Source: Haloplanus vescus
GTDB taxonomy: Archaea > Halobacteriota > Halobacteria > Halobacteriales > Haloferacaceae
Assembly (NCBI RefSeq): GCF_900107665.1
Contig: NZ_FNQT01000002.1
Location: forward strand, 250,286 to 314,285
Length of the DNA: 64,000 nt
Direction: 5' to 3'
Positions within the stretch are counted from its first letter, which is position 1. Each line of letters begins with the position of its first letter. This document shows, in pieces, positions 23,352 through 26,703 of this stretch. Both the position numbers and the translations under genes were made by a program. The notes beneath the pieces were generated by a model, which was not told where the DNA came from, searched no databases, and saw nothing but the letters and a program-made list of their open reading frames with translations.

Positions 23352-25517
23352 TCACGCGCTGTCGACGAGCGATGGCGAAACGGCGTCCAGCGCCGCCTCG
23401 AAGTGCGCGGCGGTCAGCGACACCTCGTCCGCGTGTTCGTTGGCCTCGGTCCCCTCGTAGGCGTCTGCGACGGTCCGGACCGCGAGCATGGCCGCTTCCC
23501 GACAGACAGCGGCGAGGTCGGCTCCCGAGTAGCCGGCGGTGCGCGCCGCGACGGCGTCGAGGTCCACGTCGCCGGCGAGGGGTTTCTCGCGGGTGTGGAC
23601 CTCCAGAATCGCTCGCCGGGCGGGTTCGTCGGGCGCGGGCACCTCGACGTGAGACTCCAGTCGCCCCGCGCGGAGGAGCGCAGGGTCGAGGGCATCCCGG
23701 CGGTTCGTCGCCGCGAGGACGACGAGGTGGGGGTTGTCCGCGACGGCGTCGAACTCCGTCAGGAGCTGGGAGACGACGCGCTCGGTCACCTCGCTGTCGG
23801 CGCGGTCACGGGCCGTCGCGACGGCGTCGATTTCGTCGAAGAAGACGATAGCGGGCGCGGTCTGTCGGGCGCGGTCGAACACCTCCCGGACCGCCTTCTC
23901 GCTCTCGCCGACGTAGCGGTCGAGGAGTTCCGGGCCCTGCACCCGGACGAAGTTCACCTCGCTCTCGGCGGCGACGGCGCGGGCCAGCAGGGTCTTGCCC
24001 GTCCCCGGCGGGCCGTAGAGGAGGACGCCGGAGGGCGGGTCGGCGTCCGCGGCGTCGAACAGCGGCCCGTAGGTGAGCGGCCACGTCACCGCACGCGAGA
24101 GCGTCGCCTTCGCCTCCTCGAGGCCGCCGACAGACTCGAACCCTTCGGTGGGCGTCTCGGAGACGTACTCCCGCATGGCGCTGGGGTCGACGGCGGCCAT
24201 CGCCGTCTCGAAGTCCGCGCGCCCGACGGTGATGTCGCCCGTGGCCGTCCCCTCGCGGCGGGCGCGTCTGAGCGCCGACATGGCGGCCTCGGTCACCAGC
24301 GATTCGAGGTCGGCGCCGACGAACCCGTGAGTGCGACTGGCCAGTCGGTCGAGGTCCACGTCCTCGGTCATCGGGACGCGGCGCGTGTGGACGTCGAGAA
24401 TCTCGCGCCGGCCGGCGACGCCGGGGACGCCGATTTCGATTTCGCGGTCGAAGCGCCCGCCCCGCCGGAGCGCGGGGTCTAAGTCGTCGACGCGGTTGGT
24501 CGCCCCGATGACGATGACCTCGCCCCGCGCTTCGAGGCCGTCCATCAGCGAGAGGAGTTGGCCGACGATTCGGTCTTCCATCCCGCTGCCGTCCTCGCGT
24601 TTCGGGGCGATGGAGTCGATTTCGTCGAAGAAGACGATGGTCGGCGCCTCCTCGCGAGCGCGGTCGAACACCGCGCGCAGACGCTCCTCGCTGTCGCCCT
24701 TGTACTTCGAGACGATTTCCGGCCCCGAGACGGAGATGAAGGTGGCGTCGACTTCGTTGGCGACGGCCTTGGCGATGAGCGTCTTGCCAGTCCCCGGCGG
24801 GCCGTGGAGGAGGACGCCCTTCGGCGGGTCGACGCCGAGTCGGGTGAACAGTTCCGGCTCTGCGAGGGGGAGCTCTATCATCTCGCGCACGAGGTCGAGT
24901 TCGTCGTCAAGGCCGCCGATGTCCTCGTAGGCGACGCCCGTCGCGGGGCGCGAACGCTCACCCGTCGCCGCCGCAGTCGCGTCGTCGGTCGCGTCGATGT
25001 CGCTCGGTTCGGTCTGCTCGTCGCCGCCGACCACTCGAATATCGGTCGCGTCGGTCGCTCGGACGGCGCCGGCGGGCCGCGTCTCCGTGACGACGAACGG
25101 GTCGGCGTCGAGGCTCTCGACGCGCACCCGGTCGCCCTCGCGGAGGGGGCGGCTCTCGATGGTCCGTTCGAGTTCGCGCCGCACCGAGTCTCGGTCGGCG
25201 TCGACCGTCGGCGGCGCCCGCAGCGTCATCCTGTCGGCGTCGGCGACGCTCGCCCGTCGGACGCGGACGGTGTCGCCGACGGCGACGCCGGCGTCCGCCC
25301 GCGTCTCCGCGTCGACGAGGATGGCGTCCCCGGGGACGCCGGGCCGCGCCGGCCAGAGCTTCGCCACCGTTTCCCGGCTTCCCTCGATGGCGACGGCGTC
25401 GCCGCTCAACACGCCGAGTCGCTTGCGGGCCGCCTCGGGGAGTCGGGCGATGCCCCGGCCCGCGTCGCGTTTCTCGGCGCTCCGCACCGTGAGTTCGATA
25501 CCGTCGCCCGCGCTCAT
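23352..25517 (-). CDS. cdc48: Cdc48/VAT AAA+ ATPase
   Basis: This 721-aa protein has the N-terminal double-psi beta-barrel domain (about 1-180, GIARLPEAARKRLGVLSGD). Two AAA modules follow with Walker A GPPGTGKTLIAKA near residue 235 and GPPGTGKTLLARA near 498. Walker B motifs are FFDEIDSIAP and FFDEIDAVAT, and sensor residues are ATNR in both. The D1 and D2 domains look intact. It unfolds proteins for the proteasome and other quality-control routes. The extended acidic/Thr-rich linker (about 180-205) between the N-domain and D1 is longer than in Thermoplasma VAT. Confidence 0.95.
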   Translation of the reverse strand: MSAGDGIELTVRSAEKRDAGRGIARLPEAARKRLGVLSGDAVAIEGSRETVAKLWPARPGVPGDAILVDAETRADAGVAVGDTVRVRRASVADADRMTLRAPPTVDADRDSVRRELERTIESRPLREGDRVRVESLDADPFVVTETRPAGAVRATDATDIRVVGGDEQTEPSDIDATDDATAAATGERSRPATGVAYEDIGGLDDELDLVREMIELPLAEPELFTRLGVDPPKGVLLHGPPGTGKTLIAKAVANEVDATFISVSGPEIVSKYKGDSEERLRAVFDRAREEAPTIVFFDEIDSIAPKREDGSGMEDRIVGQLLSLMDGLEARGEVIVIGATNRVDDLDPALRRGGRFDREIEIGVPGVAGRREILDVHTRRVPMTEDVDLDRLASRTHGFVGADLESLVTEAAMSALRRARREGTATGDITVGRADFETAMAAVDPSAMREYVSETPTEGFESVGGLEEAKATLSRAVTWPLTYGPLFDAADADPPSGVLLYGPPGTGKTLLARAVAAESEVNFVRVQGPELLDRYVGESEKAVREVFDRARQTAPAIVFFDEIDAVATARDRADSEVTERVVSQLLTEFDAVADNPHLVVLAATNRRDALDPALLRAGRLESHVEVPAPDEPARRAILEVHTREKPLAGDVDLDAVAARTAGYSGADLAAVCREAAMLAVRTVADAYEGTEANEHADEVSLTAAHFEAALDAVSPSLVDSA

Positions 25518-25602
25518 GCTGGAGTGCTAGGGCTGGCCGACCCTTTACGCTTCGCTCTACCGTACTCGTACTGGTCTGATTAGAGTGATTTCGTTAGGGA
25601 CT

Positions 25603-25851
25603 CCTCGAAAGCCCCGCCGCGCTGGAGTCGGGGGCCTCGCTGCGCGCGCTCCCGCTGGTCGCGTGCTTGCGTCGGCCGCCTTCCTCCAGCGCGACGCCCC
25701 TTTCAGTCCCACCCGCAGCAGCTGGCCAATCAAGCGGCGCGGGTGGGACTGAAAGGGGCCGGCGGTTCGGCGAACCCGGACGACGCAAGCACCGCAACGG
25801 AGTGAGGAGCGCAGCGAGTCCCGGGAGCCGAACCGCCGGGGGCTTTCGAGG
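25603..25851. repeat. About 250-bp imperfect palindrome with perfect 20-bp core arms
   Basis: This fills the 364-bp gap between cdc48 and the FAH gene. Core arms at 25697-25716 and 25739-25758 (cccctttcagtcccacccgc and its complement) are exact and flank a 22-nt spacer. Outer arms (from cctcgaaagcccc at 25603 to ggggctttcgagg at 25851) share blocks such as tcgctgcgc and gcttgcgtcg in mirror order with many mismatches. It is symmetric about 25727. Short open frames inside read LSVPPA on both strands and are mirror images, so I do not call genes. From memory this type of GGGTGGGACTGAAAGGGG element recurs in haloarchaeal intergenic DNA. Confidence 0.75.
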
Positions 25852-25881
25852 TGGTTACAGGTTCACCGACTCATCTGAACT

Positions 25882-26703
25882 CTATTGTCGCACCACGTCG
25901 GCGGCAACAGTCCCGATTCGGTCAACCTCGGCGCGCACGTGGTCACCGGGCGTGATGTGGTGGGCGCCGGGCGTCCCCGTCGAGATGACGTCGCCGGGTT
26001 CGAGCGTCATCACCGACGAGTGACGCGCGACGAGTTCGCGCGGCGAGAAGTGCATGTTGGCGACGGTGTTTCGCGCCCGCACCTCGCCGTCGACGACGGT
26101 CCGCACCTCCACGTCGTCGAGCGACGCGTCGCGTTCGGGGACGGCGACGTGAGGGCCGAGGACGAGGAAGGTGTCGTAACTCTTCGCGCGGGTGAGATAG
26201 CGCGGGTTTCGCTGGAGGACGTCCTCCGCGGTCATATCGATGACGGGCGTGTAGCCGGCAATTACGTCGTCGGCGTCGTCGACGCTCACGTCTCGGCAGG
26301 TGCGGCCGATGACGACGGCCAACTCTGCCTCGGCGGTGACGCGTTCCGACTCCTCGGTCGGCGGGAGGCGGATGGGCCCGCCGGGTCCCGTCGCCGCCGT
26401 CGCAGGCTTGAAGAAACTCGCCGGTTCGTCCGGTGGGTCCTCCGAGAGGTCGGCGGCGTGGTCGGCGTAGTTGAGGCCGATGCCGAACAGTTTGCCCGGG
26501 CGGGACAGACACGGGCCGAACCTGAACGCGTCGCGAGCGACGGGGTCGGCCGTCGCGGCGCCGAGTTCGTCGAGGCCGGTCGTCGCTCGCGGGAGTGCGT
26601 CTCGGACGCTCGACGCGTCGGGATAGGCCGATTGGAGTGGGACGAACCCCGTGTCGTCGCCGACGAGGGGGCGACCGTCGGCGGTGCGAGCGAGATAGCG
26701 CAT
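25882..26703 (-). CDS. Fumarylacetoacetate hydrolase (FAH)-family protein
   Basis: This 273-aa protein has an N-terminal cap of about 75 residues and the FAH domain. FGIGLNYADHAADL, the metal-ligand region ESERVTAEAELAVVIG, YTPVIDMTAEDV, RAKSYDTFLVLGP and DVISTGTPGA are all recognisable. Family members hydrolyse or decarboxylate 2-oxo acids or acylpyruvates with a bound divalent metal. Substrate cannot be read from sequence. It is last in a leftward gene run after the membrane/HTH pair, 87 bp downstream. Confidence 0.85.
   Translation of the reverse strand: MRYLARTADGRPLVGDDTGFVPLQSAYPDASSVRDALPRATTGLDELGAATADPVARDAFRFGPCLSRPGKLFGIGLNYADHAADLSEDPPDEPASFFKPATAATGPGGPIRLPPTEESERVTAEAELAVVIGRTCRDVSVDDADDVIAGYTPVIDMTAEDVLQRNPRYLTRAKSYDTFLVLGPHVAVPERDASLDDVEVRTVVDGEVRARNTVANMHFSPRELVARHSSVMTLEPGDVISTGTPGAHHITPGDHVRAEVDRIGTVAADVVRQ

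Follow-up and report, generated by a model that had tools for sequence, protein, structure and literature searches.

The BIME/REP sequences of enterobacteria are high-copy intergenic repeats made of hairpin units of 20-40 nt, which stand in head-to-head pairs around a short centre, and GOLLD, ROOL and OLE are large RNAs of plasmids and phages. For the IS6 family of transposable elements, duplications of 8 bp, GG tips and an internal cTGTt have been given as traits (PMC7986276; PMC6807381), and it has been argued that the archaeal members merit a family of their own (PMC6807381). MITEs of the IS6 type are a known kind of element: MITEHarch3 and MITEBth2 are listed in ISfinder (PMC6807381), with sizes given as 227 and 336 bp (PMC7986276), and MITEHsal2 of Halobacterium, which is 411-413 bp long, has been described with 8- and 6-bp duplications (PMC10264941). 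Other haloarchaeal systems include the PATEs and SMRs of Haloquadratum, small palindromic repeats without a transposase that insert into the palindromes of other elements, SMR-A being ~110 bp long (PMC3119063), and the TnpB ωRNA/sotRNA of IS200/IS605 elements in Halobacterium, a structured RNA on a mobile element (PMC12558985). In a halite metatranscriptome, 22 conserved intergenic RNAs without an assigned function have been reported for Halobacteria (PMC7002113).

Comparison of the locus with described systems

The locus analysed here lies in a stretch of 64,000 nt from the genome of Haloplanus vescus, referred to below as the window. We consider it probable that the locus is a non-autonomous MITE with archaeal IS6-type ends, carrying a structured unit that is found class-wide and most likely acts as RNA. 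It is like the archaeal IS6 MITEs in its IS6-type ends with GG tips, its 8-bp duplications, its haloarchaeal host and its size of 320-378 bp (copies without large inserts). It differs from them, as far as their accounts go, in the conserved, covarying RNA-like module that it contains and that is also present in carriers without IS6 ends, the comparison with MITEHarch3 being one with its description only. The carrier itself may already have been named, for example as MITEHarch3.

With the BIME/REP sequences the element shares head-to-head hairpin units, high copy number and intergenic position, whereas its unit is ~113 nt long instead of 20-40, is found with IS6-type ends and shows a strand-specific excess of G·U pairs, and no RAYT was detected among the neighbours of 133 units. 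Unlike the element here, the SMRs are described as having neither a target duplication nor known transposon ends, and the PATEs as being without inverted terminal repeats (both by the description in PMC3119063). The TnpB ωRNA/sotRNA, as presented in PMC12558985, has a different layout; no recurrent tnpB was found beside 133 units here, and these have no Rfam match. The possible large structured RNA considered below recalls GOLLD, ROOL and OLE in adjoining one protein gene on plasmids, but this plasmid locus is without an Rfam match and the large-RNA status of its spacer is putative.

When the element was compared with Rfam 15, only sub-threshold matches of miRNA models to the perfect palindrome were obtained, none above the gathering threshold, and the unit and the plasmid locus gave no match up to E 0.1. 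The core string, the RNA-like module, its range of carriers and its OB-fold neighbourhood were not found in the open-access literature searched, and the plasmid of strain DL31, examined with regard to MITEHarch3, gave no head-to-head pair at E<=0.001. As judged by Rfam and the open-access literature, the structured-RNA module is undescribed.

Boundaries and mobility of the insertion

The whole inserted element occupies positions 25567-25886 of the window (320 bp), as delimited by its terminal repeats and nominal ends and by the segment missing in relatives. The preliminary description had placed it at 25603-25851, which captures the mirrored part and omits the terminal inverted repeats, ~36 nt on each side. 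The left terminal inverted repeat of the IS6 type (CGTACTGGTCTGATTAGA, 25567-25584, + strand) is diverged, sister copies carrying GGTACTGTTCAGATTAGC in its place, and so is the right one (25869-25886, - strand). Next to them, ACCGTACT (25559-25566) and GTCGCACC (25887-25894) are the candidates for the left and right target duplication; they are identical at 4 of 8 positions, and by eye the 4 differences are all transitions. The target duplication of the window copy is, in our reading of these two octamers, old or eroded. Neither a transposase gene nor any fitting ORF is contained in the 320 bp.

On the right, the element is overlapped by a gene of the FAA-hydrolase family (PF01557, 25882-26703, - strand), whose stop codon (25882-25884) lies inside the right terminal repeat. 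The insertion junction supplies the end of this gene, VRQ-stop, and the frame is one codon longer than in relatives, where the FAA-hydrolase genes terminate earlier, at CGG-TAG. The original stop triplet seemingly lies beyond the opposite end of the element. On the left, the start codon of a gene for a CDC48-type AAA ATPase (23352-25517, - strand) is 50 bp away from the end of the element.

With window positions 25300-26300 as the query, the FAA-hydrolase part, the CDC48 part or both were matched in all 12 genomes of the genus. An empty site was found in 5/5 informative relatives, i.e. those in which both flanking genes are adjacent (G002, G004, G007, G010 with two contigs, and G011): the two genes are separated by 8-75 nt, with no part of 25558-25888 between them. 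Relatives in which the two parts were non-adjacent, or in which one part alone was found, were left out of this count.

The preliminary description had made the idea of a dispersed repeat depend on the core not being unique in the genome. Since the 16-base core GTGGGACTGAAAGGGG occurs 6 times in the H. vescus genome (2.78 Mb, 10 contigs), and its backwards-read pattern 0 times, this objection falls away. By DNA similarity 4 copies were recovered, one of them without a hairpin, and the smaller contigs additionally hold three diverged single units. The outer sequence beyond GAAAGCCCC/GGGGCTTTC is common to the sister copies and terminates in GGTASTGTTNAGATWAGC. In a set of 27 distinct copies, taken from the genus and Halonotius, the direct repeats at the ends matched exactly over 8 bp in 5 copies and over 9 bp in 3, no excess was seen at 6, 7 or 10 bp, and the mean identity of the 8-bp flanks was 54%, compared with 30% when flanks were swapped. 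At C1:1416872, the H. vescus genome has an IS that shares this end over 18 bp, GGTAGTGTTCAGATAAGC, and encodes a transposase of the DDE_Tnp_IS240 type (PF13610, IS6/IS240). The insertion, its IS6-type ends and the duplications at sister copies establish that the element is mobile; matching terminal repeats, 8-bp duplications, empty sites and the lack of an internal transposase identify it as an IS6-type MITE, of which the window copy is a diverged example.

Two further observations concern the integrity of the copies. Shortened copies that have lost an entire hairpin between GGGG repeats, with ...GAAAGGGGGCTTTC or a sequence near it left behind, were seen at L001/L010 (C1:816363 of the H. vescus genome), L103, L120, L134 and L150. 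At L259/L304 (G305:C2:324000-325000), one element is flanked by a tandem array of a ~45-bp end piece (GCTAGCGGGGCTTTCTGGCGGTTCGC...), which repeats the 3' end of the unit.

Mirrored structure and its two units

The mirrored part of the element is 249 nt long. Its outer inverted arms (25603-25645 and 25809-25851) are 72% complementary, and its inner inverted arms (25663-25716 and 25739-25792), which are 22 nt apart, are 78% complementary and include the exact inverted core GCGGGTGGGACTGAAAGGGGC of 21 nt. The 249 nt were folded to -181.5 kcal/mol (z -10.64), and 0 of 200 shuffles were as good. The two halves are thus inverted relatives with an exact core, as had been noticed before.

A central spacer (25716-25739) lies between two structured units that read outward from the centre, unit A leftward (25601-25715, - strand) and unit B rightward (25740-25853, + strand). 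They score 100.7 and 123.5 bits, respectively, with R1, a covariance model of haloarchaeal units that has both of them among its 34 building sequences, and the z values of their own folds are -3.23 and -2.12. Each half is a unit of ~113 nt, in which the core GGGTGGGACTGAAAGGGGC leads into a variable stem of ~13 bp and then into a second one. An internal loop of conserved sequence (GACGYAAG / GCRCAGCGAG) comes next, followed by a third, short stem whose tip varies and by the closing GGGGCTTTC. The 16-base core is at 25697-25712 (- strand) in unit A and at 25743-25758 (+ strand) in unit B. The basal and variable stems are inverted repeats that span 25607-25704 in unit A (- strand; arms 25607-25627 and 25684-25704) and 25751-25847 in unit B (+ strand; arms 25751-25771 and 25827-25847). 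The string GTGGGACTGAAAG may resemble the 3' end of CRISPR repeats.

The stems of the two halves, CCGGCGGTTCGGC and CGTCGCGCTGGAG, are unrelated in sequence, and each of them is nearly perfectly paired. The outer blocks, which the preliminary description regarded as degraded or diverged, therefore represent covariation, each half forming its own hairpin with a different, well-paired stem. Nor is there support for its further argument, that gene conversion or selection acting on the core is indicated by an exact core between degraded flanks, as the flanks are preserved as structure.

Selection on pairing and on one strand

At least 10 of the 13 stem pairs can be formed in 107 of the 133 places with the exact core, and these have 95 different 5' stems; the other 26 places, without a 10-pair stem, were left out of the stem counts. 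In an RNAalifold analysis of 34 units (alignment A1), double changes were found in 18 of 27 pairs; 4 of the 36 candidate units (L078, L086, L099 and L101) had been left out of this alignment, and because A1 was chosen for the exact core, the invariance of the core is partly by construction. A second alignment (A2) consisted of 131 units fitted to the model, from 100 sources (80 listed contig loci, the window and 19 others). In A2, 96.5% of the pair cells were paired versus 72.0% in shuffles, double changes occurred in 22 of 27 pairs, and the covariation score was 0.503 versus 0.124, with 0 of 500 shuffles as high; fitting to a model biases these values toward the structure, and the first stem abuts the core, which leaves little room for realignment. 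When the structure was slid along the alignment, the paired fraction fell to 33-46%.

The mismatch types were also counted. In 100 distinct stems there were 43 G·U and 9 A·C (35 and 6 where closure was by Watson-Crick pairs alone), and in the 131 units 87 G·U and 18 A·C (p 5e-12). Reading the opposite strand turns every G·U into A·C; it is therefore the pairing of the outward strand that matters, which points to RNA. Covariation and a strand-specific tolerance of G·U, both looked for as marks of a structured RNA, were found in the unit. These results support selection for base pairing in the strand running outward from the core, and the unit most likely works as RNA. The early suggestion of a structured RNA is supported to this extent, by strong pair covariation and by the G·U excess.

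Distribution and carriers

Within the genus, the exact core was present in 8 of 12 genomes and a match to the model in 12 of 12. In the class-wide sample, for which at most 8 candidates were scored per genome, units were found in 334 of 391 genomes and in 76 of 86 genera (E<=1e-4), and in the phylum-wide sample 48 of 294 genomes matched, all 48 in the same order. Nine genomes that were searched more deeply had 15-105 matches each, the top two having 105 and 95. Many of the matches are head-to-head pairs with ~14-26 nt between the units (20 pairs among the matches listed), which is the arrangement of inverse-oriented, paired hairpin units known as REP/BIME. The proposal of a haloarchaeal REP/MITE-like unit inserted head-to-head is thus supported, the units being dispersed, mobile and head-to-head. 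All 120 stretches found in named genomes by an 18-base core were haloarchaeal, and the exact core occurred 0 times in the viral contigs searched. A match to the unit was located at 25995-26106 on a plasmid of Haloplanus sp. GDY1, and the relative G003 has the unit at 25992-26106.

An IS6-type right end was found within 90 nt of only 20 of 133 units (control, 0 of 132). In G305 and G281, paired units with the same interior lack IS6-type ends; hence the module is not confined to a single transposon. Many of the G305 pairs have a CTAG-containing sequence in place of the IS6-type ends.

Genomic context of the units

Genes in the neighbour, context and targeting analyses were called with a home-made ORF rule. 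Among 61 pairs, 6 overlapping a called ORF were set aside and 55 had clear neighbours, which were co-directional in 31 cases, divergent in 18 and convergent in 6. The element edges are located sharply at 80-93 nt from the next start codon (61 pairs); once the ends are counted, the edge is ~40 nt outside the start codon and the core promoter is spared. Targeting of promoters was considered and rejected: with the original gaps and a promoter margin of 38 nt, 23 of the 43 informative pairs fell into the 40-58 nt class against 19.3 expected.

When the ORFs flanking 133 units were clustered, no cluster had more than 6 members, the few present looked like orthologous sites, and no recurrent neighbour other than the plasmid OB-fold gene described below was found. 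For 103 single units, the upstream gene was on the same strand in 50 cases and on the opposite strand in 40, so orientation is not strong; this weak bias counts against a cis-acting 3' element, which might show one.

A plasmid locus beside an OB-fold gene

A search of a plasmid collection gave 47 matching records, of which 15 were examined. In 13 of these a divergent gene, annotated as coding for a DNA-binding, OB-fold or hypothetical protein, has its start ~420-570 nt away from the unit; in L356 a short hypothetical gene adjoins the unit and the DNA-binding gene is behind it. The two records that do not fit are L355, with a TFB gene, and L368, which is unclear. The same divergent locus of gene, spacer and unit was observed at L354 and L357-L367. 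OB-fold Pfam models matched 5/5 proteins (4 from plasmids, 1 from the H. vescus genome) weakly, at or under the curated cut-off, and one OB-fold protein weakly matches solved single-strand-binding proteins.

The OB-fold gene is present in 79 of 145 genomes of the class. At 30 of its loci, at least 400 nt of the spacer was conserved in 27 and an R1 match was obtained in 16, all 16 in the same divergent layout; by eye, 8 more loci have a variant unit, and three loci are truncated. The H. vescus genome holds three such loci, L014 (C4:158704-161810), L015 (C4:54698-57804) and L017 (C5:85282-88355). The printed stretches of L014 and L015 are identical, so that contig C4 holds the locus twice.

Spacer and unit could be folded as one, with GAAGGC pairing with GCUUUC, and on such a joint fold the MITE pair would follow the same plan in miniature. 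In a 28-row alignment that mixes two unit types, misaligned by MAFFT, which weakens the test, double changes outside the unit were found in 21 of 121 predicted pairs and G·U numbered 78 versus 97 A·C, with no RNA-strand signature. The whole plasmid locus as one RNA was kept as a rival explanation, for which a fold was found but covariation and G·U counts outside the unit were unsupportive.

Proposed mechanism and alternative explanations

In the reading that we consider probable, an IS6-type transposase most likely moved the element in trans, with 8-bp target duplications; its insertion between the FAA-hydrolase and CDC48 genes is shown by the empty sites. Instead of transposon sequence, its interior holds the ~113-nt unit, a module found throughout the haloarchaeal class, which occurs singly or as a head-to-head pair. 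Because the two units point away from each other, read-through from the left or from the right would give a transcript with exactly one unit in working orientation, in a four-helix fold. The folded transcript might act in cis, either by binding a protein or by shielding or ending read-through RNA; such action could make insertions into short promoter-adjacent gaps tolerable, and this tolerance might let different carriers pick up the module. If this is true, an RNA structure that is absent from RNA-family libraries and was spread by ordinary transposon ends is present in tens of copies in most haloarchaea, and much of the unannotated intergenic DNA of the class would be explained. It would also become testable whether MITEs can persist through transcripts whose folds are useful or do no harm, and what role the conserved unit adjoining the plasmid OB-fold gene has.

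The plasmid locus beside the OB-fold gene may be the original home of the module. One tentative idea is that plasmids encode a structured RNA of ~570-720 nt and, divergently from it, an OB-fold protein that is single-strand-binding-like, and that the 3' domain of this RNA escaped as a mobile module. It is conceivable, with the same reserve, that the escaped domain was carried by several kinds of transposon ends through most haloarchaeal chromosomes, singly or as pseudo-symmetric four-helix miniatures. The unit would then be the 3' domain of a plasmid ncRNA transcribed away from the OB-fold gene, whose protein would bind it, and the chromosomal MITEs would be miniatures holding the closing helix, the 5' hairpin, the core helix and the 3' hairpin. 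This possible but doubtful explanation is consistent with the divergent OB-fold or 'DNA-binding protein' gene beside the unit in 13/15 plasmid records, the spacer of at least 400 nt kept in 27/30 loci, the divergent layout of 16/16 R1 matches (with 8 variants by eye), the joint fold of spacer and unit, the three loci in the H. vescus genome and the lack of an Rfam match. Outside the unit, however, the 21/121 double-change pairs and the 78 G·U against 97 A·C do not agree with it, L355 and L368 are misfits among the 15 plasmid records, and the spacer could instead be a DNA signal such as an origin or a promoter region.

An element that acts as DNA, i.e. a REP/BIME-like hairpin pair which is recognised in single-stranded or cruciform form by a Y1 (IS200/RAYT-like) or other nuclease and whose RNA look is a by-product, would account for the BIME-like head-to-head pairs with their short centre, and also for the exact hairpin loss between GGGG repeats (C1:816363 of the H. 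vescus genome and others), which is expected of hairpins in replicating DNA. We regard it as unlikely, because a cruciform would treat both strands alike whereas one strand shows G·U in large excess over A·C; in addition, no recurrent Y1 transposase was found next to the 133 units, although a RAYT need not be nearby. Template switching is a known mutational route in palindromes, and many units contain inserts in the form of nested perfect hairpins, both of which would suit a neutral MITE whose stems stay paired through the mending of palindrome mismatches by template switching. Such a process would explain neither why G·U is favoured over A·C on one strand nor why unpaired loop bases are conserved class-wide, and it appears improbable as the explanation. 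The GC-rich hairpins in intergenic gaps could bring to mind an ordinary bidirectional transcription terminator, but they have no U-run and the convergent context is the rarest (6/61 pairs, against 18 divergent), which makes this reading hardly credible.

Variant layouts of the unit

About 30 of the 107 well-paired units are longer than 140 nt and contain extra hairpins, often two consecutive ones, which are inserted into stems or loops and leave the fold unbroken. The extra hairpins resemble small palindromic repeats in their own right, for example in L022, L024, L041, L067, L077, L089 and L095. A third layout, with a larger central domain ahead of the core whose arms are CCTCCCCAGCCG...CGGCTGGGGAGG, was seen in L049, L054, L058, L067, L068 and L102; its centre is intermediate between the short centre of the MITE and the long spacer of the plasmids. 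In L074 and L126, which come from different haloarchaea, the unit is located in the same gap, with flanking genes that cluster together and look by eye like those of a cobalamin pathway, and either shared ancestry or repeated insertion could account for this.
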